64,000 nucleotides of DNA from Stygiobacter sp. (lineage in GTDB: Bacteria > Pseudomonadota > Alphaproteobacteria > Rhodospirillales > Magnetospirillaceae): the NCBI GenBank assembly GCA_006218045.1, contig VBWB01000022.1, positions 1-64,000 on the forward strand, read 5' to 3'. The translations under genes were made by a program, and so were the position numbers. The notes under the pieces were generated by a model. It saw only the letters and a program-made list of their open reading frames with translations, was not told where the DNA came from and made no database searches. Positions 220-30,678 of the stretch are shown one piece after another. The first letter of the stretch is position 1; every line of letters starts with the position of its first letter.

Positions 220-1512
220 CTATTCCCCCAACACCCGGTTCAGGAACTTGTCCATTTCGGTCCGCAGGCGATTCGCGTTCTCTTCCAAGGTCGCGGCCGA
301 AGTCAGCACTTGCGAGGAAACGCCGCCGGTGGTGACCACCGCTCGCATGACACCCGAGATGTTTTCCGATACCGCCTGGGTTCTGGCGGCGGTTTGTTGG
401 ACATTGCGGGCGATTTCGTTGGCCGCCGCTCCCTGCTGTTCGACAGCGGCGGCGATATCGCCCGAGATTTCCCGCATATGGGTGATGACATCGCTGATGG
501 TTCCGATCGCCAGCACGCTGCGCCGGGCTTCCTCTTGCACGCCGTTGATCTGGGTCGAGATCTCGTCGGTGGCGCGGGCTGTCTGATTGGCCAGGCCTTT
601 GACTTCCCCGGCGACCACGGCGAACCCCTTGCCGGCATCGCCGGCACGAGCCGCCTCGATGGTGGCATTCAATGCCAGCAGGTTGGTCTGACTGGCGATT
701 TCATTGATCAGACGCACCACATCACCGATTTTCGCGGCGGCTTGGTCCAAAGCCTGTACCATGGCGAAGGTCCGAACCGCTTCGTCTGACGCCGAAATGG
801 AAATGGAGGCCACCTCGGCGACGCGACGGCTGATCTCGCCGATGGATCCTGAAAGCTGTTCCGAGGCCGAAGCCACCGCTTGGACATTGGCGCTGGCTTG
901 TTCTGCCGCTCCGGCGACCGCCGCCGCCAGTTCCGAGGCGCTGTTCACGGCCTGGGCCATGGTCCGGGCCTCGGCATCCATTTCCGCAGCCGAGGACGAC
1001 ACCGCCTCGACCACCCCCATCACTTCCGATTGAAAGCGATTGGCAAGCTGGTGCATGGCCTCTTTGCGATCTTCTTCCGCCTGTTTTTGCGCATGAATGT
1101 CGATCAGGGTGCCACAGGCCCGGGTCGGGACCCCGTTGGAATCGCGCGCCACGCCGGCAATGGCCCGAAACCAGCGATAGCTTCCGTCCTTCGTCCGCAA
1201 GCGATATGGACGGTCGTAACCGGTTTTCCCGGTGATGTCCTCAAGACATGCCCCAAAGGCGGCAAAGGTGGCATCGGCGTCTTCGGGGTGCAGACGCTCG
1301 GCCCAGGATCGAACCGTATCGGGAAACTCGGCCGCGCTGGCAAAGCCCAGCAAACGCCGGAATTCCGCCGACCACCGCCATTGGCTTTGCTGATGCAAGG
1401 GATTGCCGTCATGAATGCGGGCATCCCACAAGCCGACCCCGGCATAGCGGTCCAACAGGTCCAGCAATTCGGCCTGATCTCGGGCGACAGCCATATTCTT
1501 GAGGAAATACAT
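220..1512 (-). CDS. Soluble PAS-domain methyl-accepting chemotaxis protein
   Basis: A 430-residue chemoreceptor with no membrane segment. A PAS domain (PAS_3-like fold; motifs [29 protein letters not shown]) occupies about residues 15-140. The rest is an MCP signalling domain with the hairpin-tip signature [20 protein letters not shown]. It should signal through CheA/CheW from the cytoplasm, as PAS-only receptors for redox or metabolic state do. The frame is open further upstream, but the start at 1512 gives a PAS domain beginning near the N-terminus and is preceded by a purine-rich AGAGAGAG stretch; the longer start has no support. It lies just downstream of the alcohol dehydrogenase, separated by a terminator, so it is probably transcribed on its own. 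A role in taxis linked to the neighbouring ketone or alcohol metabolism is inference. Confidence 0.9.
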
Positions 1513-1640
1513 CGGGGGCTCTCTCTGTCGACTAAAACGCGGGTGCCACAAAATGGGGCGGGAAGCAGGAACAGGACGCCCAGTTGGGCAAATGGCGGGT
1601 TGGTGATCCCCGTCACCGACGCCCGCGTCCCACCGGCGGG

Positions 1641-1675
1641 AAAAAAGCCGGTTCCGCTTCAAAAAGCGGAACCGG
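1641..1675 (-). terminator. Rho-independent terminator after the alcohol dehydrogenase
   Basis: CCGGTTCCGCTT (1648-1659) pairs perfectly with AAGCGGAACCGG (1664-1675). Read on the minus strand, the hairpin is followed by a run of T (A-run at 1641-1646). It sits 38 bases past the dehydrogenase stop and before the chemoreceptor gene. Confidence 0.9.
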
Positions 1676-1712
1676 TAGTCGGGTGTTCGTTCAAGAAAGC
1701 AGCTCTGATGCC

Positions 1713-2750
1713 CTAGGGCTGGATGATCACCTTCAGAGCGTTGGTGGCCGCGGCACGCTGGAAGGTGTCATACGCCTCCAGCATGTCCTTCATTTTGAAG
1801 CGATGGGTGATCAACTTCTTGGGGTCCAGCTTCCTGGACTGCACCGTCTTCAGCAGCATGGGGGTGGTCACGGTGTCCACCAGCCGGGTGGTGATGGTGA
1901 TGTTGTGGGCCCACAGCTTTTCCAGATGCAGGTCGGCCTTGGCGCCGTGCACGCCGACATTGGCGATGGTTCCGCCAGCGGCGACGATGTCCTGGCACAG
2001 TACGAACGTGGTGGGAATGCCGACCGCCTCGATGGCCACGTCCACCCCGGCCCCGCCGGTCAAAGCCTTGACCACGTCAGCGGCCCGACCGTCACCACTG
2101 TTGACGGTCTTGGTGGCGCCAAAGGTACGGGCGACTTCCAGACGGTTGTCGTCCAGATCGATCATGATGATCTCGGCCGGCGAGTAGAATTGCGCCGTCA
2201 GCAGGGCGGCCAAGCCGACCGGCCCGGCGCCGACGATGGCGACGGTGCAGCCCGGGCTTACCTTGCCGTTCAGAACACCGCATTCGAAGCCGGTGGGCAG
2301 GATGTCGCTCAGCATCACCAGGGCTTCTTCGTCCATGCCTTCCGGAATGCGATGCAGGCTGGTTTCGGCAAAAGGAATGCGCACGAATTCAGCCTGGGTG
2401 CCGTGAAGCGTATGGCCCAGAACCCAGCCCGCGTTGACACAATGCGAGTACATGCCGCGGCGGCAGAAATCGCACTTGCCGCAAGCGGAAATACACGAAA
2501 TCAGAACGTGATCGCCCTTTTTGAAGGACTGCACGGCATCGCCCACTTCCTCGATGATGCCGACGCCTTCGTGCCCCAGCACGGTTCCCGGCTGCACGGT
2601 GGGAACGTCACCTTTCAGAATGTGCAGGTCACTGCCGCAGATGGTGGTGCTGGTGATGCGAACGATCGCGTCGGTGGGGGCTTCGATCCGAGGATTCGGC
2701 ACGTCTTCCAATGCCTTGAGGCCGGGCCCCCGATAAACCAATCCCTTCAT
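1713..2750 (-). CDS. Zinc-dependent (secondary) alcohol dehydrogenase, MDR family
   Basis: A 345-residue medium-chain dehydrogenase. Visible are the catalytic-zinc region (TICGSDLH, then GHEGVG), the structural-zinc cysteine cluster [15 protein letters not shown], and the Rossmann motif VGAGPVG followed by the acidic IDLDDNR that favours NAD+. It would interconvert a secondary alcohol and a ketone. Immediately upstream is a ketone carboxylase operon, so the likely path is alcohol to ketone to beta-keto acid; in the acetophenone pathway this oxidation is done by an unrelated short-chain enzyme. The start at 2750 follows AAGGAGA at good spacing; the longer frame to 2852 overlaps the promoter. 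A sigma-54 promoter lies just upstream and a terminator follows. The exact substrate cannot be read from the sequence. Confidence 0.9.
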
Positions 2751-2803
2751 GTGGACATCTCCTTTTTGTCTGTCGCGGTGATTTCCGCGCAGACGGTCCA
2801 AAT

Positions 2804-2819
2804 CGCAATCCGGATGCCA
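2804..2819 (-). promoter_or_regulatory. Sigma-54 (-24/-12) promoter of the alcohol dehydrogenase
   Basis: On the minus strand this reads TGGCATCCGGATTGCG. The GG and GC dinucleotides are separated by exactly 10 bases, matching the TGGCAC-N5-TTGCA consensus closely. Predicted transcription start near 2793, leaving a leader of about 43 bases with the ribosome site. Confidence 0.8.
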
Positions 2820-2880
2820 ATCCCGAGATGCCAAATAAATAAAATAAATCAACTAACTAATATGACGTCACGCTGCCGTG

Positions 2881-2919
2881 CGTCCGATATCCGGATGCCG
2901 GGCGTCCGATAACCGGACG
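2881..2919. promoter_or_regulatory. Tandem inverted-repeat operators (candidate sigma-54 enhancer sites)
   Basis: Two 17-bp copies: CGTCCGATATCCGGATG (2881-2897) and CGTCCGATAACCGGACG (2903-2919). The second is a perfect CGTCCG-N5-CGGACG palindrome. Centres are 22 bp apart, about two helical turns, and lie roughly 96 and 118 bp upstream of the predicted dehydrogenase start, where enhancer-binding activators usually sit. A related site is in the carboxylase/GTPase intergenic region. Confidence 0.65.
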
Positions 2920-2932
2920 GCGGCGGAAAGAT

Positions 2933-2958
2933 GGGGGCCGAGACGAATCCCGGCCCCC
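2933..2958 (-). terminator. Hairpin terminator at the end of the carboxylase operon
   Basis: GGGGGCCG (2933-2940) pairs with CGGCCCCC (2951-2958). On the minus strand it is followed by ATCTTTCC, a weak T-tract. It separates the last carboxylase-operon gene from the enhancer sites and promoter of the dehydrogenase. Confidence 0.6.
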
Positions 2959-2988
2959 CCAAGGGCCGCTGGCACGCGGAGGAAAACT

Positions 2989-3849
2989 TCAGCTTCGCAA
3001 CAGCCCCAGCTTCTCCAAGACCGTCTCAGGAACTTGGTCGGCGGGGATTTCGGCGAAATAGAACTGACCGCTGGAGAGCGAGGGCATACCCCCGTCGGCC
3101 CACAAATCCGTGGTGACATCGATTCCCAACGGCTTGTCCATCCCAGGAACCGGCGACGCGCTGATCACGCCGTCCACCACCGGGACCATGGCTCCAATGG
3201 AATCCGCGTCACCATTGGTGCGCCAAACGATTCCCCAGCGGTAATGGCGGGCGATATTGACGATGGAACGGCAGCGTTCGGCGTCACCCACCTGAGCCGC
3301 CATCCCCTGGTCGTCCAGTACGATTCCGCCCACCGGAGCGGCAGCCAGGGCCCGCAGGAAGTCAGCCACGTACATGGCGGCGTCCTCGATGTCGTCGGCT
3401 TCGCTATCGACGTCGTCGCGGCCCACCATGCCATTGGCCAAAGCCAGCCAGCGACGGGGCGTCGGCAATGACAGCACCGCCGGGGCCTGACCCCGCAGAC
3501 AGCCATCGACAGCGGTCAAAGTCTCGGCCAGCAATTCCCGGGGGCCGGTGGCTTCCAACAATTTCCGCAAGGGAAAGGTGGTCCGGCGTTTGGAAGCCAT
3601 CTCGGTCAGCAAATCGGGATGACGGCTGGCCCAAGAGGCCAGCAACTCATCCACATCCAAAACGGCCACATCAGGACGAAGCAAGCCGTGGGCCTGGCTG
3701 AAAAAGGCAAGATAGCTCGCCGCGTTCAGCCAGGGATCCCCGGCTTCGCCGAGGAGAAGCCGCCGGGCATAGCCCGACGACTTCAACCACACGCGAATGC
3801 CCGCCTTGCCCGAACCGTCCGGCAGTTTCTCGGCAAGGCTTAGGGTCAT
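2989..3849 (-). CDS. Fifth gene of ketone carboxylase operon, Apc5-like position, unknown fold
   Basis: A 286-residue (about 31 kDa) soluble protein with no signal peptide or membrane segment and no catalytic motif that I recognise. Its ATG overlaps the stop of the large carboxylase subunit in an ATGA, so the two are translationally coupled. Acetophenone carboxylase operons end with a gene for an extra ~34 kDa protein (Apc5, epsilon) needed for activity, and this gene has the matching place and size. The link rests on position and size, not on sequence I could compare. Visible features are a hydrophilic N-terminal half and a C-terminal GIDVTTDLW/SSGQFYFAEIP segment. Confidence 0.7.
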   Translation of the reverse strand: MTLSLAEKLPDGSGKAGIRVWLKSSGYARRLLLGEAGDPWLNAASYLAFFSQAHGLLRPDVAVLDVDELLASWASRHPDLLTEMASKRRTTFPLRKLLEATGPRELLAETLTAVDGCLRGQAPAVLSLPTPRRWLALANGMVGRDDVDSEADDIEDAAMYVADFLRALAAAPVGGIVLDDQGMAAQVGDAERCRSIVNIARHYRWGIVWRTNGDADSIGAMVPVVDGVISASPVPGMDKPLGIDVTTDLWADGGMPSLSSGQFYFAEIPADQVPETVLEKLGLLRS

Positions 3850-6122
3850 TGCTTTTCGCCTCCCATGCCGCCCAGGGCAGCCAACTTGCCTTCCAACTCG
3901 GCGATGCGCACATCCTTGGGGTGCGGCATGTAGTTGGGACGAGGCGTGTTGGCGTCACGGGTCTTGTCCTGCGCCCCCATGTACAGGGTCGAGACATCGT
4001 CGCCCCAGCATCCGAAATACTTCAGATGCGACGGCGGCTTGGGCTTGCTCCAGTCCTTGACGAATTCCGAATAGGGCTTCGAGCGCGCGATACGAGCCTT
4101 GCGCTCGGCATCGCGAGCCTGGTTGGTCGCGTCGAAATTGATCGCCAAGGTCTTGCGGTCGAACTTGACCTTGTACAGCCTCTCGGCGGTTTCGGACGAG
4201 ATCAGGCCCTCCTCGATATCCTTGATGACGTTGACCGGATCACGTTCCAGCATGTCGCCATAGCCGGCCCCCGCCCCCTGCGAGATCATGAACAGCTCCC
4301 CGCGCTTCGAGATTTCGAAACCCATGCCCATGTGATGGGTGGTGTAGCTGGCGCCTTCGAAAGGCTGTTCGTTCATGATTTCCTCGATGGAGTGACGGAA
4401 CTTTTCCGGCTCGTTCATCAAGATGTCGTAGACGTCGATACCCTGGACCTTGCTCAGCGGATAGCAACCGCAGGCGTAACCGCCGAACAAACCCTGCAGC
4501 GGCGGAATCTTGGCGCCCTGGCAGGTGGTCATGAAGCCCCATTGTTCGGAATCCTTGGTCGCCACCACCATGGTGTAACCCTGACCACCCCGGTACTTGC
4601 CCGGTGCGATGGCGTCGCGGGTCATCTTCTTGGACACCAATTGCAGGAACGGAACTTCTTCTTCGTTCAATTCCTGTTCGCCGATATCGGCCATGGTGGC
4701 GAAAATCGGCGCCAAGGCATGCTCGCCGTCACGATCAGAGACGGCACCCGCCCCCATGCCGTTCAGGTCGGCGCACAGGTTGCCCAAGGTTTCCCCGTGC
4801 TGGCTGACACCACCCCAAATGAAGGTGTTGATCATGTTGAAGGTCGGGGCGTGGACCTTGGTGTACTTCTCGGGGCAGGAATACAGGAACTTGGCCACCG
4901 CGTGCTGACCGGCGGTGAAACCGGTGAAGATGGACATCAAGCTTTGCGAGTTGGGCGCGTCATATGAGCAGTTCACGATCGAATGCGGATCGGTGATCAT
5001 CTCGATGGGCGCGAACGCCGCCTGACCGCGGGGCAGGTCGGGCCAGACGTAACACAGGAACACCTGGGCCAACATTCCCTTCAGACCGGCGACGATGGTG
5101 TTGGTGGCGCGGTTGGTGAATTCCGGGCTGGAGCCGCGGAAGTCGAAGATCAGCCGGTCGCCGGTTTTGGTCAGTTTGCAATTGATCTTCACCACGCAGT
5201 TCTCGCGCAGGGTCGAGTCCTGGATGATATAGCTCCGCACGGTCATGTCGGGCCATTCGCTGATGCGGCGCTTGACCTCGGCACGGACGTTTTCCATGGT
5301 CAGACGCAGGGTCGAAACCAGGGCGCCCGGACCGTCGGTGTTCAAGGTTTCCTCGATACGCTGCTTGATGCGCAAGCAGGCGTACAACTTGACCTTCATG
5401 TCTTCGTACTGAAGCTTCGGCTCGCGCACCGAATTTTGCAGGAAGGTCAGAATGTCGCGCTTGATCTGATAGTTCTCGACCACCTTGAACGGGGACATCT
5501 TCAGCCCCTCGTCGCTGGGGCTTTCCGCCATGGACGGCATGCCACCCGGCTCGATGGCGCCGTTTTCACCTTCGTGAACGGTCGAGGCCACCCAACACAC
5601 CAGCTTGCCCTTGTGAAAGATGGGCAGGATCATGCTTTGGTCGGTATTGTGCACGTTGCCATAGCGCGAGTCGTTGTGGATGAAACCGTCACCTTCGCGC
5701 ACGCCCACGGTCGGGTCGTTCAGCCAGTTCTTGATGATGAACTTGATGGGGTGGTGCACCAGGGCCGAGAAGATCAGCACGCCGCCGGCGCTGGCGATGG
5801 CCAGATCGCCCGAGGCGGAGTAGACGCCGGTGATGACGTCGCCCCACTTGGCACCCGGAGCCGCCCCCATCTGTTCGACCATCTCGTAGCCTTCGTCGCA
5901 ACCCGATTGGATGCGGTCACGAATCTTGGCGATGGTGTGGACATCGCTGAACGAAGCGATGGCCGTTTCCTCTTCCGCGCTGCGGGGCATCAGATCATGG
6001 TTCTGCATGATCTCCGGATCAGGACCAAGGAACAAGGTGGTGTCGTTCAGGAACTTCTTGATCAGTGCCATCTCTTCCGCGGACGGGGCCTTGGGCGTCC
6101 GCGAATTGCTCATGTTATTCAT
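3846..6122 (-). CDS. Ketone carboxylase HyuB-type subunit (Apc4/AcxB-like)
   Basis: A 758-residue protein of the hydantoinase B/oxoprolinase family, the size of acetone carboxylase AcxB and Apc4. This subunit type carries the site where the activated ketone enol is carboxylated. In acetone carboxylase it binds manganese through His/Asp residues in its N-terminal third; here a cluster DGFIHND (about 145-151), GNVHNTD (155-161) and IFH (170) is the probable equivalent. A glycine-rich stretch KYRGGQGYTMV lies in the C-terminal half. The start at 6122 follows GGGAGGAATCCT; a second ATG three codons later is less well placed. It is 39 bases after the upstream HyuA-type gene and overlaps the next gene by four bases. 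Metal and substrate are inferred from the family. Confidence 0.9.
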   Translation of the reverse strand: MNNMSNSRTPKAPSAEEMALIKKFLNDTTLFLGPDPEIMQNHDLMPRSAEEETAIASFSDVHTIAKIRDRIQSGCDEGYEMVEQMGAAPGAKWGDVITGVYSASGDLAIASAGGVLIFSALVHHPIKFIIKNWLNDPTVGVREGDGFIHNDSRYGNVHNTDQSMILPIFHKGKLVCWVASTVHEGENGAIEPGGMPSMAESPSDEGLKMSPFKVVENYQIKRDILTFLQNSVREPKLQYEDMKVKLYACLRIKQRIEETLNTDGPGALVSTLRLTMENVRAEVKRRISEWPDMTVRSYIIQDSTLRENCVVKINCKLTKTGDRLIFDFRGSSPEFTNRATNTIVAGLKGMLAQVFLCYVWPDLPRGQAAFAPIEMITDPHSIVNCSYDAPNSQSLMSIFTGFTAGQHAVAKFLYSCPEKYTKVHAPTFNMINTFIWGGVSQHGETLGNLCADLNGMGAGAVSDRDGEHALAPIFATMADIGEQELNEEEVPFLQLVSKKMTRDAIAPGKYRGGQGYTMVVATKDSEQWGFMTTCQGAKIPPLQGLFGGYACGCYPLSKVQGIDVYDILMNEPEKFRHSIEEIMNEQPFEGASYTTHHMGMGFEISKRGELFMISQGAGAGYGDMLERDPVNVIKDIEEGLISSETAERLYKVKFDRKTLAINFDATNQARDAERKARIARSKPYSEFVKDWSKPKPPSHLKYFGCWGDDVSTLYMGAQDKTRDANTPRPNYMPHPKDVRIAELEGKLAALGGMGGEKQ

Positions 6123-6161
6123 AGGATTCCTCCCGAAATCAGGTCTGTTGGTGCGGACGTG

Positions 6162-8300
6162 TCATTCATTGCGCAGGAACCACGACGCCCCTTGCTTGGC
6201 GGCGACGAAGGTCCAACCGGGATCGACCAGGAAGGTGGTCACCTCGGACGCGACGATCGCCGGGCCGGGGATTTCCACACCGGGTTCGATGGCCGAGCGG
6301 CTCCACACCGGGGTCTCGAACGAGTCCTTGTGGCCGACGAAATAGCAGGTGCGCTTGGACGTCGGAGCCGGCGGCAGCTTGCGGCGGCCCTTGGCCAGCG
6401 GCTTGATGTCTTCGAATTGCACCGTTTCGTGCTGCACATAGGAAGCCACGCGGATGGTGTTGATGCGGATACCCGCTTCGGGGGCCTGAGAGCCCTCGCC
6501 AAACCGCTTGCCGTAATCGTTGGAGAATTGCGAGATCATGGCCAGCACGTCACCCGGACCATTCAATTCGTGCTTCGGAATGACCGCCGTGGTCTGAACC
6601 AACTGGTTGCCGTAACGCATGTCCAGTTCCAGGTTGTGGCGGATATCCTGGGCCTTGGCGCCCTGGCGCAGCAGGTCCTGACGGCCGCGTTCACGCAAAT
6701 CGGCGACGATGCCGTTGAAGCGGTCGTAATCGTCGAAGATGTTGCGGGTATTGCTGTCGTACAGCACCATGTAGAGCGATTGCTCGTGAATATGCAGTTG
6801 GTGCATGTTGCCGGCGCCCACCGCCGAGAAGACCGAGCTGAACGGCGGAGCCAGGATCTTGTCGATATTCAGATTCTGGGCGATGCCGCAGCAATGCAGC
6901 GGGCCGTTGCCGCCATAGGCCAGCATGGTGAAGTCCTTGGGGTCGTACCCGCGGGCGCGCAATTCGGTGAACAGGCCGTTGGCCATGTTGTCGTCCACCT
7001 TCTCGCGGATCAGCAAGGCCGCTTCGATCACCGAACAATCCAACTCGTCGCACAGAGTGTCTTCGATGGCGGATTTCGCACGACGCGGGTTCAACGGGAT
7101 CGAGCCACCGGCATAATTGGTGGGATCCAGATAACCCAACAGCAAATCGGCGTCGGTCACGGTCGGACGCATGCCGCCACGATCGTAACAAGCCGGGCCG
7201 GGATCGGAACCCGCGCTTTCCGGGCCGCACTTCACCGTCTTGTACATGCGGTCGTAAGACGCGATCGAGCCGCCGCCCGCACCCAGGGTGACGAGGTGGA
7301 CCATGGGAACGGAAACCAGCCAGCGATCGATGACCGGGTTGAAGTCGTAGTGCTTGATCCCGCCATCGACGACGATGCCGATGTCATAGCTGGTGCCGCC
7401 CATGTCGGTGGCGACCACGTTGCCCAAGGCCGCCTGCATGGCCAAGTGTTCCGAGGCGCCGATACCCGAGACCGGACCAGAGTGGATGGTCTGCAAGGCG
7501 TCGGTGGAGTTCAACTGCGCCATGCCGCCGGAATTGTGGATGGTCAGCATCGGGCGTTCATAGGAATGAGCGCGCAGATTCTGCTCCAGCGTCGACAAGG
7601 CGTGATACATGGTCGAGTGCAGATAGCCATCGACGATGGCCGAAGTCGCCCGCACGTACTCGCCCTTACGACCGGCCACCTGGTGCGACAAAATCACCGG
7701 AATGGCGCCCAACAGGTGCGAGGGATATTCCTCGAGGATGATTTCCTCGATGCGTTGTTCGTGATGGGGATTGACGACACTGTTGACCAGGGCGACGACG
7801 ATGATCTGGGCCCCACGATCGACCAGTTCGCGGATCTGGGTGCGGACGTCGTTTTCGTCCAGCGGCATGACCAGACGGCCTTCGAAATCGACGCGTTCCC
7901 GCACGCCGCGGATCATGTGCGGCAGCACCAGCGGGTCCGGGCGCTGGGCGTTGGGCATGTCTTGCTGGCCCAGATTGTCCAGACCCTCGCCATAGCCGCG
8001 GGCACGGCTGAGCGGCACGGTGGCCTCGTAGCCGGCGGTCACCAGCATACCCATCTTGGGGCCCTTGTGCTCGATCAGGGCATTGGTGCCCAGGGTCGTC
8101 GCGTAGCGAACGGAATCGACCTCGGACAGGATCGCCTCAAGATCCAGATCAAGCACGGTGCACGCCTTGCCCAAGGCTTCATTGAAGCCCATGGCCAGGT
8201 TGTGGTGCGTGGTGAGCGCTTTGGCCTCGACGTATTTGTCTCCCCAGACCACAAAGCAATCGGTGAAGGTCCCACCGATATCGACCGAAACACGTTTCAT
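6162..8300 (-). CDS. Ketone carboxylase HyuA-type ATP-binding subunit (Apc3/AcxA-like)
   Basis: A 712-residue hydantoinase A/oxoprolinase-type subunit of the ASKHA ATPase fold. The N-terminus carries the phosphate-binding loop DIGGTFTDC and the second phosphate motif is TDMGGTSYDIG. GAGGGSIA and YGGNGPLHCCG follow. In this enzyme family the subunit uses ATP to phosphorylate bicarbonate and/or the ketone enol before carboxylation. The start at 8300 has GGGAGGATGC before it and puts the ATP motif at residue 8; the frame upstream to 8378 has no support. The protein starts directly at the ATP loop, like Apc3, whereas AcxA has a short N-terminal extension. A 117-base gap with a hairpin separates it from the small-subunit gene. 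Confidence 0.9.
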   Translation of the reverse strand: MKRVSVDIGGTFTDCFVVWGDKYVEAKALTTHHNLAMGFNEALGKACTVLDLDLEAILSEVDSVRYATTLGTNALIEHKGPKMGMLVTAGYEATVPLSRARGYGEGLDNLGQQDMPNAQRPDPLVLPHMIRGVRERVDFEGRLVMPLDENDVRTQIRELVDRGAQIIVVALVNSVVNPHHEQRIEEIILEEYPSHLLGAIPVILSHQVAGRKGEYVRATSAIVDGYLHSTMYHALSTLEQNLRAHSYERPMLTIHNSGGMAQLNSTDALQTIHSGPVSGIGASEHLAMQAALGNVVATDMGGTSYDIGIVVDGGIKHYDFNPVIDRWLVSVPMVHLVTLGAGGGSIASYDRMYKTVKCGPESAGSDPGPACYDRGGMRPTVTDADLLLGYLDPTNYAGGSIPLNPRRAKSAIEDTLCDELDCSVIEAALLIREKVDDNMANGLFTELRARGYDPKDFTMLAYGGNGPLHCCGIAQNLNIDKILAPPFSSVFSAVGAGNMHQLHIHEQSLYMVLYDSNTRNIFDDYDRFNGIVADLRERGRQDLLRQGAKAQDIRHNLELDMRYGNQLVQTTAVIPKHELNGPGDVLAMISQFSNDYGKRFGEGSQAPEAGIRINTIRVASYVQHETVQFEDIKPLAKGRRKLPPAPTSKRTCYFVGHKDSFETPVWSRSAIEPGVEIPGPAIVASEVTTFLVDPGWTFVAAKQGASWFLRNE

Positions 8301-8351
8301 GCATCCTCCCAAATTCTTCTGCATTAGGCCGGGCAAGCCGGTCCCGTTGGC

Positions 8352-8376
8352 GGGATCGCTGCGTTTTGGCGATCCC
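8352..8376 (-). other. Intra-operon hairpin between small and HyuA-type subunit genes
   Basis: GGGATCGC (8352-8359) and GCGATCCC (8369-8376) form an 8-bp perfect stem in the only long gap (8301-8417) of the carboxylase operon. There is no T-run, so it more likely tunes mRNA processing or subunit ratio than stops transcription. Confidence 0.5.
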
Positions 8377-8417
8377 ACCTCTTTCCAAGGGATAAGCGGG
8401 GTCAGCCCGCCAGGGCG

Positions 8418-8816
8418 TCAGTGGTTGTGGCCACCATCCGCAGTCACCGCCGGGCCGGCATAGGGCGCCGTATCCTTGCCGCGAGCCGCCCATTGGGCCT
8501 TCAACGCCGGCAGGTTGGGTTCCATGTCGTGCAGCGGCGGATGGCCGGGAATGGCGTATTCGGTCTCGACCTGGGTGCCGCAATTGGGGCAGCAGAATTC
8601 GAGAATGCGCACCCATTCCGGGTCGGGGCTGAAGGTGAAGCGGTACTTTTCCGGATCAATGATCGGCGGATGGATTTCGCGCGGGTCACGATTGTGAACC
8701 AGCAGACCTTCCTTGTAGCTGTGATCGGCTCGGCCGATCACATGGTCGCAGACGCGGCATTCCCAGTTTTCGGTTTCCAGGTCGATCCGCAGATATTCGG
8801 TCATGGGAACTTTCAT
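8418..8816 (-). CDS. Ketone carboxylase small zinc-ribbon subunit (Apc2/AcxC-like)
   Basis: A 132-residue protein of the acetone carboxylase gamma-subunit family. Two CxxC pairs, CRVC near residue 20 and CPNC near residue 75, form a zinc ribbon. In acetone carboxylase this subunit binds zinc and is structural. At about 15 kDa it matches Apc2 and is shorter than AcxC of acetone carboxylase (about 20 kDa). The ATG at 8816 follows GGGAGG with an AT-rich spacer, six bases after the preceding stop; the internal ATG four codons on has no ribosome site. The C-terminus ends in a His-containing GGHNH tail. Confidence 0.9.
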   Translation of the reverse strand: MKVPMTEYLRIDLETENWECRVCDHVIGRADHSYKEGLLVHNRDPREIHPPIIDPEKYRFTFSPDPEWVRILEFCCPNCGTQVETEYAIPGHPPLHDMEPNLPALKAQWAARGKDTAPYAGPAVTADGGHNH

Positions 8817-8822
8817 TTTTTA

Positions 8823-10760
8823 TCAAACCTCCCTGTTCAGCATGACGTCGCCGGCCTCGCTGACGACCAAGCGCCAACCCTCGAGCACGCGGCAGGTGAA
8901 AAAGTCTTCTTCAAGAATGGCCGGGCCATGGGCGTAATCCCCGGGCTTCATGTCGGCCAGACGGTAAACCGGCACCGTGAGGCGCTCGCCCTTGTTGAAC
9001 AGCACGGTACGGGTGCCGGAGGGACGGGCGGCGGCGGCGGCCTTGAATTCCGCAACCTTGCGCGAGTCGCCCCGCAAGCTCTTGATGGCGTTCAATTCCA
9101 GTTCAACGCTGGTGGCCTCGAAGAAAGCCGCCGGGAAGACCGGGGCTTCGCCCAGCACCTTGTTCAGGGTGCGACCATCCTCGAAGGTGCCGACCACCGT
9201 GGCCTGGATGTCATAGGTGCCGGCTTCGCAGCCCTCGGCGAACATGTCGCGGGCGGCCTTGATGCGCAGGGCGGACAACTTTTCCTGAAGTTCTTCGGTG
9301 GAATGTCCGTCCAGTTCGACCACGTAACGCTGCGAGATATCGCAGGCACCGATGCCATAGGCCGAGAACACCGCCGCCATTTGCGGAATCGCCACCCGGG
9401 TGATGCCGGCCTTTTCGGCGACGCCACAGGCGTTCAGCGGACCAGCCCCACCAAAGGCCAGCATCACCGTATCCTTGGAAATCTTGGTAAAGCGATGCAA
9501 TTCGGAAGCGATCTTTTCCTCGTAGGACCGCTCCATTTCGATCAAGGCCTTGTCCAAGGACAGCCCCAGAGGATCGGCGATGTTGGTCTTGATGGCCGTC
9601 GCCGCACGGTCAAGGTCCAGCCCCATGCCGCCACCGAAATAGGATGCCGGGTCGAACAGGCCGCACAGCAAGCTGGCGTCGGTGATGGTGGCTTCCTTGC
9701 CACCGCGGCCAAAGCAGGCCGGGCCGGGGATGGCGCCGACGCTTTCCGGGCCGATGGCCACCCGGTTGTCCTTGACCTTGAAGATCGAGCTTCCACCGGC
9801 ACCGGCGCTCATGATCTCGCACAGCGGGAACGAAACGCTGATCCCTTCCACGTGGCCGTGGCGGATTTCAGCCACGCTGCCGTTCAGGTATTGGCCGATA
9901 TCGGTGGTGGTGCCGCCGACGTCGATGGAGACCGAATCGTTAAAGCCGTAAAGCTTCGAGAACGCCTTGACGCCCTCCATGCCACCGCGCGGGCCCGAGC
10001 TGTAGCTCTTGATCGCGATGGTCTTGGCCACGCGCGACGCGTCGCCGTCATTGCGGAAGATCAGCAGCGGGTTCTTCATCCGGTAATCGCGCAGACGGTT
10101 CTCCGCATTGTACAGGAAGCTTTCCATGGCCGGATGCAGGAAGGAATTGATCATGGCCGTCCAGGTGCGGCGTTCGGCATCCTTGTCGGTGGTCAGGTCA
10201 CTACCGTAAAGGATCGGCACGGCGCCCAGCAGATGGCGGGGGAACTTGCGCAGGGCCACCTTCTTGAAGCGATCCTCGACCGCATGAAAGCCCGGGCCGT
10301 CGAAGCTGACGACCAGGCGGTTGGCGCCGGAAGCGGTCAGGGCATTGATGGCCTTGACCACTTCGATGTCGGCTTCCCCGCCCATTACCACGGTGGTGTC
10401 CAGGAACACCACGCGATCTCCCACCAAAGCGGCGAACAACTCGGGGTCGTGCTCGGCCAGCAGCTTGGGCAGCCCGCGCTCGGCCTCGTTGAGGATCAAG
10501 CCCAGACGCGGCCCCTTGCGTTCGCAAATGGCGTTGGTGCCCTGGGTGGTGGAATAGCGGATCAGCTCCACTTCTTCCAGCAAGCGCTTCACATCGGGTT
10601 CGCCATAAATGACGCCAGAGGCCTTTTGAAGACCATCGAAGAAACACTTGCTGAGATCGTATGGAGTTGTCAGCACCTTGGTCTTTTTGACAAAATCTCC
10701 ATCCATGATGCAGATGTCGGTCAGGGTGCCGCCATTATCGATATTAATCTGTAATGCCAT
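8823..10760 (-). CDS. Ketone carboxylase first HyuA-type subunit (Apc1-like)
   Basis: A 645-residue (about 69 kDa) hydantoinase A/oxoprolinase-family protein, first gene of the operon. The first phosphate motif reads IDNGGTLTD, with Asn where the paralogue downstream and most family members have a Thr/Ile (DTGG/DIGG); the second reads SIDVGGTTTDIG, followed by SAGAGGSS and FGGAGPLNACG. Acetone carboxylase has one HyuA-type subunit, whereas acetophenone carboxylase has two (Apc1 and Apc3) that use two ATP per ketone. The presence of a second copy is the main reason for calling this operon Apc-like. AGGAGG lies 9 bases before the ATG at 10760. Transcription is predicted from a sigma-54 promoter about 110 bp upstream. 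Confidence 0.88.
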   Translation of the reverse strand: MALQINIDNGGTLTDICIMDGDFVKKTKVLTTPYDLSKCFFDGLQKASGVIYGEPDVKRLLEEVELIRYSTTQGTNAICERKGPRLGLILNEAERGLPKLLAEHDPELFAALVGDRVVFLDTTVVMGGEADIEVVKAINALTASGANRLVVSFDGPGFHAVEDRFKKVALRKFPRHLLGAVPILYGSDLTTDKDAERRTWTAMINSFLHPAMESFLYNAENRLRDYRMKNPLLIFRNDGDASRVAKTIAIKSYSSGPRGGMEGVKAFSKLYGFNDSVSIDVGGTTTDIGQYLNGSVAEIRHGHVEGISVSFPLCEIMSAGAGGSSIFKVKDNRVAIGPESVGAIPGPACFGRGGKEATITDASLLCGLFDPASYFGGGMGLDLDRAATAIKTNIADPLGLSLDKALIEMERSYEEKIASELHRFTKISKDTVMLAFGGAGPLNACGVAEKAGITRVAIPQMAAVFSAYGIGACDISQRYVVELDGHSTEELQEKLSALRIKAARDMFAEGCEAGTYDIQATVVGTFEDGRTLNKVLGEAPVFPAAFFEATSVELELNAIKSLRGDSRKVAEFKAAAAARPSGTRTVLFNKGERLTVPVYRLADMKPGDYAHGPAILEEDFFTCRVLEGWRLVVSEAGDVMLNREV

Positions 10761-10867: not shown

Positions 10868-10883
10868 GGCAAGAGCCGTGCCA
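10868..10883 (-). promoter_or_regulatory. Sigma-54 promoter of the ketone carboxylase operon
   Basis: On the minus strand it reads TGGCACGGCTCTTGCC, with GG-N10-GC spacing. The -24 hexamer is a perfect consensus. Predicted start near 10857, about 97 bases before the first gene. It is back to back with another sigma-54 promoter driving the divergent GTPase gene. Confidence 0.85.
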
Positions 10884-11060: not shown

Positions 11061-11076
11061 TGGCACGGTCGTTGCT
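11061..11076 (+). promoter_or_regulatory. Sigma-54 promoter of the G3E GTPase gene
   Basis: TGGCACGGTCGTTGCT matches the -24/-12 consensus at nearly every position, with GG at 11062-11063 and GC at 11074-11075 (10 bases between). Predicted start near 11087, leaving a 36-base leader. Confidence 0.88.
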
Positions 11077-11122: not shown

Positions 11123-12352
11123 ATGACGACTTCATTCGCCACCGAGACATCAAACCAAGACGGTCGCATCCCCGTCAGCGTGCTCACCGGTTTCCTGGGG
11201 GCGGGAAAAACCACATTGCTGAATCACTTGACCCGCCACCGGGACATGGCGGGAGTGGTGGTGTTGATCAACGAATTCGGGGAAGTGGGGATCGACCACC
11301 ACCTTGTTGAAAGGGTCGACGAATCCATTCTTCTGCTGGATTCCGGATGCCTTTGCTGTTCCATGCAGGGGGATTTCGTCAACGCCCTGAAGACTCTGCA
11401 TGAACGCTTGGCGCGGCGGGAAATTGCAGAAATCCGTCGGGTTGTGGTGGAAACCACCGGATTGGCCGATCCCGTTCCCGTGCTCTACACCTTGATGGAG
11501 CAACGCTATGTCTCGGCCCGTTATGTCTGTGACGGCGTGCTGACCGTGGTCGATGGCAGCCGCTCGCCCGAAAACCTTGCCAAACAAGCCGAAGCGGTTC
11601 GGCAAGTGGTTATGGCCGATCGCATCCTGGTGTCCAAGGCCGACATCTCCAGCCGGGAAACCCTGGAAAAGGTGGAAACCTGGGTTCGCGACCTGAATCC
11701 GACCGCTCCGGTTTTTCGTACCAGCCAGGGGGATATCGCGCCACGCCACCTGTTTTCCGGCGGCGTCTATTCTCCTTCGGAACGCCCAGACGAAGTGACC
11801 AGTTGGCTCCACGACCTTTCCGTCCAGGAACAGGGTCATCACGGCCATCACCATGCCCTCGATCATCATCATCATGGAGATTCGGCGGCAACGGCGATCC
11901 GCAGCTTCACACTGTGCTTTGATCAGCCGGTTTCCTGGCGGGGGCTGGCGGTGACCATGGGCGACATCCTGCAACAGCACGGCGCCGAACTCTTGCGCGT
12001 CAAAGGCGTCCTGGCCGTGTTGGGAAGCGACGCCCCCATGGTCGTGCAATGTGTCGAAGACGTCGCCTATCCCGCCGTTCAATTGGCCCGCTGGCCGGCC
12101 AACGGCCCGTTGGCGGACCGCAAGGGGCGGTTGGTGTTCATCACACGAGGCCTGTCGCCCGAGGACGAACTTTCCATCAAGGAAAGACTGGCGGACTTGC
12201 CCGACGACAACGCCGCTTTTCGCGTTCTGGCCGCCAACCCGACCCTCGTCACCCGTTGCTGGCTCAGCCAACGTCTGCCATGGATGGGCAATGGCAGTTT
12301 CGAGACGTCAGGATGGGTGGTCCAGCCCCCCATTCGGGCGCGACGTGCTTAG
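11123..12352 (+). CDS. G3E-family GTPase / metallochaperone (CobW/COG0523)
   Basis: A 409-residue P-loop GTPase. Walker A is GFLGAGKTTLLNH, the metal-binding GCLCCSM (CxCC) motif follows at about residue 75, and VSKADI is the NKxD-like guanine motif. A His-rich linker near residue 240 (HHGHHH, HHHHGD) joins the GTPase to a CobW C-terminal domain. Family members insert or deliver metals (zinc, cobalt, iron) to client enzymes or act in zinc homeostasis. The gene is divergent from the ketone carboxylase operon with its own sigma-54 promoter and a shared operator, so delivery of zinc or manganese to the carboxylase is a reasonable inference. The ATG at 11123 follows GGGAGG; the frame remains open upstream to 10754 but would cross the promoter. 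Confidence 0.88.
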   Translation: MTTSFATETSNQDGRIPVSVLTGFLGAGKTTLLNHLTRHRDMAGVVVLINEFGEVGIDHHLVERVDESILLLDSGCLCCSMQGDFVNALKTLHERLARREIAEIRRVVVETTGLADPVPVLYTLMEQRYVSARYVCDGVLTVVDGSRSPENLAKQAEAVRQVVMADRILVSKADISSRETLEKVETWVRDLNPTAPVFRTSQGDIAPRHLFSGGVYSPSERPDEVTSWLHDLSVQEQGHHGHHHALDHHHHGDSAATAIRSFTLCFDQPVSWRGLAVTMGDILQQHGAELLRVKGVLAVLGSDAPMVVQCVEDVAYPAVQLARWPANGPLADRKGRLVFITRGLSPEDELSIKERLADLPDDNAAFRVLAANPTLVTRCWLSQRLPWMGNGSFETSGWVVQPPIRARRA

Positions 12353-12694
12353 CGATTTGAGTCTGTGAAGTCCTTTTGAGTTTTGACCACCGACACTGCG
12401 CCCGAAGCCTCGAATCGAACAAACGACGTCGCCCCCAGCGGCGTCGAATTTCGGCGAATCCGCCTCTTTGACGGCCCGAGCATAATCCGTCGCGTTGACG
12501 GTCGCCGACAAAATCCGCCCCAGCTCCCACCCAATCGACCGCTTTCGGTGAAAGGCGGCGAACCAATACGTTGGTGTGAAGCCGTCCGCCTTTCATCCCA
12601 TGCATTAGATCATAAGATTTTTGTATAACCATTGTATTAGTTAATGCGATGCATATCATGAACGCATATGGCGAATTGGTCAGGAGATCACCCT
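12353..12694 (+). other. Gene-free stretch before the secreted repeat protein
   Basis: I see no supported gene. Open frames on the minus strand lack ribosome sites and recognisable products. The last ~90 bases are AT-rich (around 12605-12665) compared with the flanks and probably hold the promoter of the next gene, but I cannot fix its elements. Confidence 0.4.
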
Positions 12695-13600
12695 ATGCAC
12701 AAATTGCTGCTTGTTCCCGCCGTCGTTGCCGCGTTCATTGCCGTTTCACCCGCCAGCGCCCAATCGGTGACGCCGTCGCAGATTTTCCAGGAAGCGGAAT
12801 CCATCAACGCGCAACTGGCCACCTTCCACACCGCCAATGCCAGCACGCCCACCGATGATCCCGACCTTCAGGCGGTGACCAACCGCCTGCCGCGCCACGT
12901 TTTTCAAAAGGCGCGCGAAGTGCTGCTCAAGACCCAGGGGCTCAGGGCGCTCAAGGGCTTGCCAGAACAGCCCATTCCCGTGGTCGAGGTCCGCGAGGTG
13001 CTGCCGGCCGACACCATCCAGTTGCTCAAAGCCATCTCAACCGGTCTACAGGATCTGCGCCCCGCCTTCGGCAACCCGCCCCAACCCGCACCGGTTCCAC
13101 TCGTCGACGGCAAGTCTCCCACCGACGCCTACAAGGCGGTGGCCAAGGCGTCGCTGTCCCTTGACGGATTGGGCCTTCCCCCCGCCACCCCCAACGAAGT
13201 CTATCGTCTGGCCCTGACCCTGGTTTCCGACATCGACAAGATTCGTGCCGCCCGCGGGGTCAGCGCGGTGGTCCCGTTGCCCGACCCGGTAAGCGGCAAG
13301 AAGCCGGTCGACGTCTATGAAATCAGCTATCAGTTGCTGACCGAGCTGAAGACCCTGGTCGAAGGCAAGGCCGATTACGCCGTGCCGCAGGGCATCGTCC
13401 TGCCGGCCAAGCGTACCGGCGCCATCAAGCCCTCGCATGCGTCGGAAATGATCAACGTCTTGCTGGCCGAGGTGTCATCGGTCAAGGCCAAGGTCGGCGC
13501 CACCAAGCCCTCCGACCTCGCCCCGCCGCAAAACGGCAAAACGCCGTCGGATACCTACCAAGTGTTGATGCGCGCCCGCGCCATGCTGGCAGGCCTGTAA
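12695..13600 (+). CDS. Secreted helical-repeat protein of unknown function
   Basis: A 301-residue protein with a clear signal peptide (basic start, hydrophobic 4-18, cleavage after ASA/Q near 22). The mature part is built of about eight degenerate units with pattern P-x-D/E-x-Y/F followed by a Leu-rich helix. They start near residues 27, 66, 104, 142, 165, 204, 246 and 284 (for example SPTDAYKAVAKASLSLDGL and TPSDTYQVLMRARAMLAGL). No known family comes to mind. AGGAG lies 8 bases before the chosen ATG; an ATG nine codons upstream has no ribosome site. It is 33 bp upstream of a transmembrane chemoreceptor on the same strand, so the two are probably co-transcribed. A periplasmic partner of that receptor is inference. 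Confidence 0.75.
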   Translation: MHKLLLVPAVVAAFIAVSPASAQSVTPSQIFQEAESINAQLATFHTANASTPTDDPDLQAVTNRLPRHVFQKAREVLLKTQGLRALKGLPEQPIPVVEVREVLPADTIQLLKAISTGLQDLRPAFGNPPQPAPVPLVDGKSPTDAYKAVAKASLSLDGLGLPPATPNEVYRLALTLVSDIDKIRAARGVSAVVPLPDPVSGKKPVDVYEISYQLLTELKTLVEGKADYAVPQGIVLPAKRTGAIKPSHASEMINVLLAEVSSVKAKVGATKPSDLAPPQNGKTPSDTYQVLMRARAMLAGL

Positions 13601-30662: not shown

Positions 30663-30678
30663 TGGCACGAACCATGCA
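30663..30678 (+). promoter_or_regulatory. Sigma-54 promoter of the flagellar hook gene
   Basis: TGGCACGAACCATGCA, with GG-N10-GC spacing and a perfect -24 hexamer. Predicted start near 30689, 33 bases before the hook-protein ATG. Hook genes are often sigma-54 dependent in flagellated proteobacteria. Confidence 0.8.

Follow-up and report, generated by a model that had tools for sequence, protein, structure and literature searches.

The first 64,000 nucleotides of contig VBWB01000022.1 of Stygiobacter sp. (here termed the window; the contig is numbered C31, one of 62 that make up a genome of 4.33 Mb) carry an operon that probably encodes a biotin-independent, ATP-dependent ketone carboxylase with the architecture of acetophenone carboxylase (Apc). 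Its substrate would most likely be a short aliphatic methyl ketone, acetone and/or butanone, and we give this reading as a whole a probability of roughly 0.6. The subunits, their predicted folds and motifs, the linkage of the genes and the promoter-like sites beside them are directly observed. The operon consists of five consecutive minus-strand genes (10760-2989), found where a sequence-only reading of the same DNA had placed them, with the order, sizes and motifs that it described. In the list of open reading frames and their translations the order is alpha'-gamma-alpha-beta-epsilon, which is that of apcABCDE:

8823..10760, minus strand: alpha' subunit (ApcA-like HyuA, 645 aa); best PDB match 5l9w_b (apcA product), alpha' clade in the tree
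8418..8816, minus strand: gamma subunit (zinc ribbon, 132 aa); PF08882, 132 bits
6162..8300, minus strand: alpha subunit (ApcC-like HyuA, 712 aa), presumed ketone kinase; 5l9w_B match, RERVDFEG fingerprint
3846..6122, minus strand: beta subunit (ApcD-like HyuB, 758 aa) with a metal-type site; 5l9w_A match, D95/H158/D161/H183
2989..3849, minus strand: epsilon subunit (probable ApcE homologue, URO-D fold, 286 aa); predicted model, Foldseek, profile link via intermediates

Core subunits and the fifth protein

A Pfam scan finds Hydant_A_N and Hydantoinase_A in both HyuA proteins, Acetone_carb_G in gamma and Hydantoinase_B in beta. The alpha gene probably starts at the ATG at 8300, because close relatives start at the same position, and the listed GTG at 8378 would make it too long; the end of beta and the start of epsilon share 4 nt. 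All four core subunits have their best PDB match in the Apc core complex: alpha with 5l9w_B (E-value 6.3e-160; acetone carboxylase (Acx) and hydantoinases about 1e-80), beta with 5l9w_A (9.8e-84; Acx 1.8e-35), alpha' with 5l9w_b (4.6e-89) and gamma with 5l9w_C (3.3e-29; Acx 1.2e-07). Identity to the EbN1-type Apc proteins is 37.9% for alpha, 31.0% for alpha' and 28.3% for beta.

In both HyuA subunits the two ASKHA phosphate motifs are retained, as is the GxxPGP motif for adenosine. The R/KERxDxxG fingerprint, which distinguishes alpha from alpha' by the criteria given in the passages covered of Weidenweber et al. 2017 (PMC5214803), occurs as RERVDFEG in alpha, while alpha' has no RERxD. The zinc-ribbon cysteines of gamma are retained (C20, C23, C75, C76 and C79). 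In beta, D95/H158/D161/H183 align with the Mn ligands E89/H150/D153/H175 reported for Acx (PMC5543143, in the part consulted). At these positions all 30 non-Acx beta rows of our alignment read DHDH (the oxoprolinase row is excluded from this count), three Acx-type rows read EHDH and a fourth EQDH.

Compared with ApcABCDE of Aromatoleum aromaticum EbN1 (5l9w core, 9fou ApcE), the operon shares the gene order, the five subunits, the two ATP sites, the RERxD fingerprint in alpha only, the gamma cysteines, the D/H/D/H metal-type site of beta and a predicted URO-D fold in epsilon. It differs in the length of beta (758 residues in the window, 684 in EbN1), in its pocket residues and in an epsilon that escapes direct sequence search; where the EbN1 operon has a coenzyme A (CoA) ligase, the window's genome has a CoA-transferase elsewhere instead. 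The marks of the Apc architecture, namely gene order, two HyuA subunits, a short gamma with four conserved cysteines and an epsilon homologous to ApcE by structure and by profiles with intermediates, are thus all found. AcxABC (5m45, 5svb) has the same core of HyuA, HyuB and gamma, with equivalents of the Mn ligands H150, D153 and H175, but lacks alpha' and epsilon, follows the acxABC order, has a gamma that is 168 residues long in the structures solved, and carries E89 where the window's beta has D; its hallmarks of three subunits, one HyuA, the acxABC order and a long gamma are absent from the operon. The same is true of the plan of hydantoinases and oxoprolinases, with two subunits only and no gamma. 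The hydroxyphenylethanone carboxylases HpeCBA/XccBCA also carboxylate an aryl methyl ketone on its acetyl group, Hpe after phosphorylation of the substrate, but they are biotin-dependent and are stated, in the part of PMC9618137 covered, to be non-homologous to the ATP-dependent acetophenone carboxylase of EbN1; identity with them was rejected on the ground of their biotin dependence.

The fifth protein has no match in Pfam or NCBIfam, the NCBIfam ApcE model included, and no significant sequence match in the PDB. Its predicted model (pLDDT 94.1) takes the URO-D TIM-barrel fold across the full length, and the top Foldseek match is 9fou, the solved ApcE, followed by URO-D entries. The TM-scores are 0.57-0.68 for URO-D entries and 0.60 for ApcE, the Z values reach 18.9 and 17.0, respectively, and the Foldseek root-mean-square deviation is large throughout these rows (5.1-6.6). 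URO-D entries match the model as well as or better than ApcE does, and the fold alone therefore does not single out ApcE. The ApcE structure was released in the PDB on 2025-12-24; no paper on it was found in the open-licence literature, most subscription papers lying outside this coverage.

The sequence-only reading had likened this protein to Apc5 and proposed a profile comparison, a check that came out divided. Compared directly with ApcE, the protein reaches a probability of 4%, with a short and misplaced alignment, and this part fails; a link appears when intermediates are used, namely the haloarchaeal epsilon (L017) and the epsilon-like proteins of loci L121, L123 and L124 (score 53.2, probability 91.5). 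Among the controls for this score, 200 column shuffles gave at most 25.5 and the reversed alignment 12.2, and 54 other locus families reached at most 22.3 against the window set and 30.0 against the Apc set. The window epsilon sets gave a negative profile comparison with a URO-D-like set (A5), and adding A5 to the Apc set dropped the probability from 91.5 to 61.7. No match was found when the plasmids were searched by tblastn with ApcE and with the L121 epsilon, and ApcE was not found in the five carrier genomes searched. Structure, synteny and the profile link together support the assignment of epsilon as an ApcE homologue, and the absence of any similarity, which would have counted against the earlier proposal, was not what the structural comparison returned.

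Two further groups of URO-D-like proteins were encountered. In L121, L123 and L124 an Apc-like cluster is arranged differently again, with the gene for a URO-D-like epsilon placed between those for alpha' and alpha. L116-L119 give weak ApcE-profile matches to URO-D-like proteins of about 340 aa; in L116-L118 the adjacent open reading frame is ferredoxin-like by eye, and these loci possibly encode a corrinoid methyltransferase system.

Relatives of the operon and the substrate pocket

A scan of a genome collection of 84,980 species gave 475 stretches encoding a relative, and the best 80 of these are the loci used here. Their beta subunits are 67-92% identical to that of the window, and they come from alpha-, beta- and gammaproteobacteria, Geobacter(aceae) and one metagenome-assembled genome labelled Nitrospinaceae; cultured carriers include Azotobacter vinelandii, Xanthobacter and Acidocella. 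Relatives in plasmid records reach 91% in Neorhizobium, 50-52% in Rhodococcus and Cupriavidus and 41% in Halorientalis. Of the 80 loci, 77 continue for 700 bases or more beyond beta, and tblastn places an epsilon gene in 76 of them (the exception being L075); this association of five genes is therefore far beyond chance.

In a tree of 68 HyuA rows, made by a quick method without bootstrap and with a single 5-oxoprolinase row, the window's alpha' falls in a clade with EbN1-type ApcA and other Apc-like alpha' proteins, and its alpha with its own family. The lone oxoprolinase row groups with Acx; the deep root of the tree is ambiguous, at a support of 61. Within these limits neither HyuA protein is placed with oxoprolinase, and the two HyuA subunits in an Apc layout that had been proposed from the DNA are borne out by the alpha' and alpha identities. 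In the HyuB tree (35 rows) the window family, its haloarchaeal member included, forms a clade of its own (support 98/97); this clade separates from Apc and Acx with a support of 91/86 at a point where long branches meet, so that the deep order is ambiguous. By these sequence comparisons, the operon belongs to a separate and widespread subfamily that is distinct from acetophenone carboxylase.

Within the window group, the residues of the substrate pocket were surveyed in ten bacterial rows and one haloarchaeal row, a sample smaller than the set of 80 loci. Seven residues are named as lining the acetophenone pocket of Apc (L81, F281, N282, P285, I333, Q344 and T345) in the passages covered of PMC5214803. 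In the window's alpha they correspond to T72, I272, H273, P276, I324, H335 and L336 (TIHPIHL), which departs from the LFNPIQT found in three Apc rows and taken as the sign of an acetophenone carboxylase proper. All ten bacterial rows read T(I/V)HP(I/V)HL and the haloarchaeal row reads TMHPIYM; the four Acx-type rows read LIVPMAM, LIVPMAM, LIVPFAT and LMIPMHL. Two rows of another Apc-like group have THNPIEV, the pocket of the alpha (L135) whose gene shares a contig with L121. A near-fixed pocket of neither the Apc nor the Acx kind is the best hint that the sequences give of a common but different substrate.

From the 80 loci, 32 carrier genomes were chosen and searched for further gamma subunits. 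In 14 there is a second gamma, classed as Acx-like from its score (179-197 bits), and in one the second gamma scores lower (104 bits); the remaining 17 resemble the window's genome in having just one. Together with the pocket, the co-occurrence in 14 genomes hints at a separate role for the window-type enzyme, in line with the ketone other than, or in addition to, acetone that the sequence-only reading had proposed, but the carriers with one gamma weigh against this.

Neighbouring genes, regulation and a second cluster

A gene for a zinc-dependent alcohol dehydrogenase (ADH) adjoins the operon downstream on the same strand, and a CobW gene diverges from the operon across a gap of 362 bases:

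220..1512, minus strand: PAS-type chemoreceptor, possibly for substrate or energy taxis; PAS_3 and MCPsignal
1713..2750, minus strand: Zn-dependent alcohol dehydrogenase (345 aa), presumed step from secondary alcohol to ketone; linked homologues, PDB matches
10868..10883, minus strand: sigma-54-like promoter facing the operon; 1 mismatch
11061..11076, plus strand: sigma-54-like promoter facing the CobW gene; 0 mismatches
11123..12352, plus strand: CobW/COG0523 GTPase (409 aa), presumed metal chaperone; PF02492 and PF07683

The PDB matches of the ADH include several isopropanol and secondary-alcohol dehydrogenases; the best match by far, 5yln, is named only as a zinc-containing alcohol dehydrogenase. 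A close homologue of this ADH is present in five of the 80 loci, at 83% identity in Acidocella aromatica and 65-76% in the four others. These and the following neighbour counts are of tblastn homologues in loci many of which end at contig ends (49/80 are at least 20 kb long). They give a sigma-54 activator in 49/80, CobW in 44/80, scoA together with scoB in 15/80, an AMP-forming CoA ligase in 22/80, a thiolase or BktB in 30/80, RpoN in or near the carboxylase cluster in 11/80 (and at L013 18499-19797) and a ZIP zinc transporter in 9/80. A Geobacter locus (L067) has carboxylase, CobW, CoA-transferase, thiolase and ADH in one run, its ADH being a different one, 35% identical to that of the window.

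The sequence-only reading had taken the lack of a CoA ligase or thiolase for an aromatic beta-keto acid in the window as a sign that the substrate may differ, an argument that fails at the level of the genome, where thiolase, CoA-transferase and a regulator lie together on contig C17 (L157):

3054-1891: thiolase
1852-1151: scoA
1135-494: scoB
3553-5592: sigma-54 activator, divergent
5753-6634: PF13557 protein

The Acidocella operon has an scoA/scoB pair beside it, to which the C17 genes show 78% (scoA) and 84% (scoB) identity; for the C17 activator, identity to activators linked to the operon reaches 62%. An acetoacetyl-CoA ligase sought in the window's own genome gave no match above the cut-off. 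Parts of the presumed regulon stand at the start of the window's contig as well as of C17 (noted for 1-220 of the window and 1-6634 of C17), and their Acidocella counterparts lie side by side, so that these contigs may adjoin each other in the genome.

Sigma-54-like sites lie upstream of the operon, the CobW gene, the C17 thiolase and the PF13557 gene, the two on C17 being without a control of their own. Across the window such sites are not above chance (13, against a chance mean of 14.3). The sole exact site and one of the two sites with one mismatch fall in the gap between the operon and CobW, the other lying at 30663. Upstream of alpha', sites with at most two mismatches occur in 46 of 67 relatives and in 30 of 1340 control stretches, where coding DNA is among the controls and the relatives do not count as independent; 13 of the 80 loci were dropped from this count for want of a second called HyuA gene, of a recognised alpha' start or of 300 bases of upstream sequence. 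Their place and their recurrence in relatives make the two sites in the gap credible as promoters.

Several other genes were noted in these surroundings. A ZIP-family gene stands near the operon in L030, L031, L035, L037, L038, L040, L048, L049 and L077, which fits a need for metal. In the window, a 310-aa protein (12668-13600) with a signal-like N-terminus by eye lies between CobW and a second chemoreceptor, and has no Pfam match at 1e-5. The chemoreceptor at 220-1512 resembles one close to the Neorhizobium operon (L013 6060-7382) more in its PAS domain (52% identity) than in its signalling domain (37%), a pattern that suggests a common ligand or a common role in energy taxis; in the Apc locus L018, too, there is a chemoreceptor in the vicinity (865-3000), which carries a haemerythrin domain. 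Downstream of the operon in L028 (13693-20076) and similar loci are genes for a Ycf48-like protein, an RND transporter, DUF1302 and DUF1329; genes of these clusters are met again in loci from Rhodocyclaceae and gammaproteobacteria and perhaps serve the uptake of a hydrophobic compound.

Proposed reaction, competing explanations and meaning

We infer the chemistry, the identity of the metal, the regulation and the substrate, and the scheme is drawn by analogy with Apc as described in the passages covered of PMC5214803. The ADH of the operon would turn a secondary alcohol into the ketone and so supply the carboxylase, in which alpha would phosphorylate the enol form of the ketone and alpha' would phosphorylate bicarbonate to carboxyphosphate. 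The activated halves would then join in a closed complex, helped by the metal site of beta and the URO-D-fold barrel of epsilon, to give a beta-keto acid. This product would be activated by the 3-oxoacid CoA-transferase encoded by scoAB on C17 and cleaved by the C17 thiolase to acyl-CoAs, on which the bacterium could feed. CobW would probably deliver the metal, and one sigma-54 activator may control both the operon and the C17 cluster. A short aliphatic ketone is favoured because of the 3-oxoacid CoA-transferase, the ADH resembling isopropanol dehydrogenases and the Geobacter locus with all the steps.

The HyuA and HyuB families, being shared with hydantoinases, would allow the operon to be an ATP-dependent amidohydrolase (a hydantoinase or lactamase) with extra subunits, and a caprolactamase alpha model does score 423.7 bits on the window's alpha, although its cut-off is 1000. 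This explanation is barely credible, given that hydantoinase-type enzymes are described as having two subunits and no gamma, alpha' or epsilon (PMC5214803, passages covered), that Apc scores in the PDB comparison are about twofold or more above hydantoinase scores for alpha, beta and alpha', and that CoA-transferase, thiolase and ADH genes are linked to the operon in relatives. An acetophenone carboxylase in the strict sense, orthologous to ApcABCDE, would account for the identical gene order and subunit set and for the best PDB matches of all four core subunits, yet it too is very improbable. The four core subunits score far below the NCBIfam Apc equivalog cut-offs (346.6/1250, 123.1/250, 570.5/1500 and 329.7/1500 bits) and ApcE is unmatched, whereas an Apc operon of the same bacterial family (L018) scores 1177/1250 for ApcA, 1388/1500 for ApcD and 329/450 for ApcE; with L018 so near the ApcA and ApcD cut-offs, the operon of the window is not just a local version of Apc. 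Its pocket is also not LFNPIQT, and the stretch from the operon to the ADH holds no gene for a benzoylacetate-CoA ligase.

More weight belongs to an enzyme of the same class acting on a larger hydrophobic or aromatic methyl ketone, which we consider unlikely. Several points tell against the proposed scheme, some of them in favour of such a substrate. In gammaproteobacterial relatives the operon is accompanied by genes for an AMP-forming CoA ligase and a thiolase, often with DUF1302/DUF1329 genes, so that a larger, hydrophobic ketone would suit that sub-branch; the counts of ligase and thiolase or BktB homologues among the 80 loci, and the RND-transporter genes in a number of relatives, point the same way. 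The pocket is unlike that of Acx, and 14 of the 32 carriers also hold an Acx-like gamma. The bicarbonate-site residues E248/D274/K281 of Apc correspond to S254/D280/D287 in alpha', one of the three being kept. A second scoA/scoB pair exists on contig C62, and C17 and the window are separate contigs, their partnership being deduced from similarity to genes linked elsewhere and not from linkage. Against the larger ketone stand the 3-oxoacid CoA-transferase in the window's genome and in near relatives such as Acidocella and Neorhizobium, and the likeness of the linked ADH to isopropanol dehydrogenases. The pocket signature is equal in the ligase-bearing L097 and the CoA-transferase-bearing L023, so that the pocket does not separate the two readings.

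If the carboxylation of a short aliphatic ketone is accepted, the operon might further represent a third class of biotin-independent ketone carboxylase, a proposal that we regard as tentative and open to considerable doubt. Such an enzyme would carry out acetone/butanone-type chemistry with the two-kinase, ADP-forming design of Apc and not the single-site, AMP-forming design of Acx, with bicarbonate activated on a separate subunit. Epsilon would use a URO-D decarboxylase fold in reverse, as the site, or the gate, at which CO2 and the enol phosphate come together, and horizontal transfer would have carried the class through Proteobacteria, actinobacteria and haloarchaea.

The kind of cluster is already known. 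Weidenweber et al. 2017 recognised four- or five-gene Apc-like clusters, apcABCD(E), with a much more divergent fifth subunit; in the passages covered (PMC5214803), close epsilon orthologues are named only in Nevskia and Rubrobacter, and the window subfamily, the fold of the fifth subunit and the neighbouring genes are not defined. No description of the coherence of the subfamily, its pocket, its linkage to a metal chaperone and sigma-54, or the identity of its fifth subunit was found in the open-licence literature, with most subscription papers outside this coverage. In plasmid records the large subunits are annotated as hydantoinase/oxoprolinase family, the fifth protein as hypothetical and gamma, where annotated, as acetone carboxylase gamma, an annotation on which the present comparison bears. 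According to the passages covered of PMC5214803, a single enzyme of the Apc branch had been characterised biochemically as of 2017; the cooperation of two ATP sites that lie about 50 Å from each other, and the function of epsilon, were left open there. A widespread subfamily with a predicted URO-D-fold epsilon and a distinct pocket would make both questions testable by comparison.

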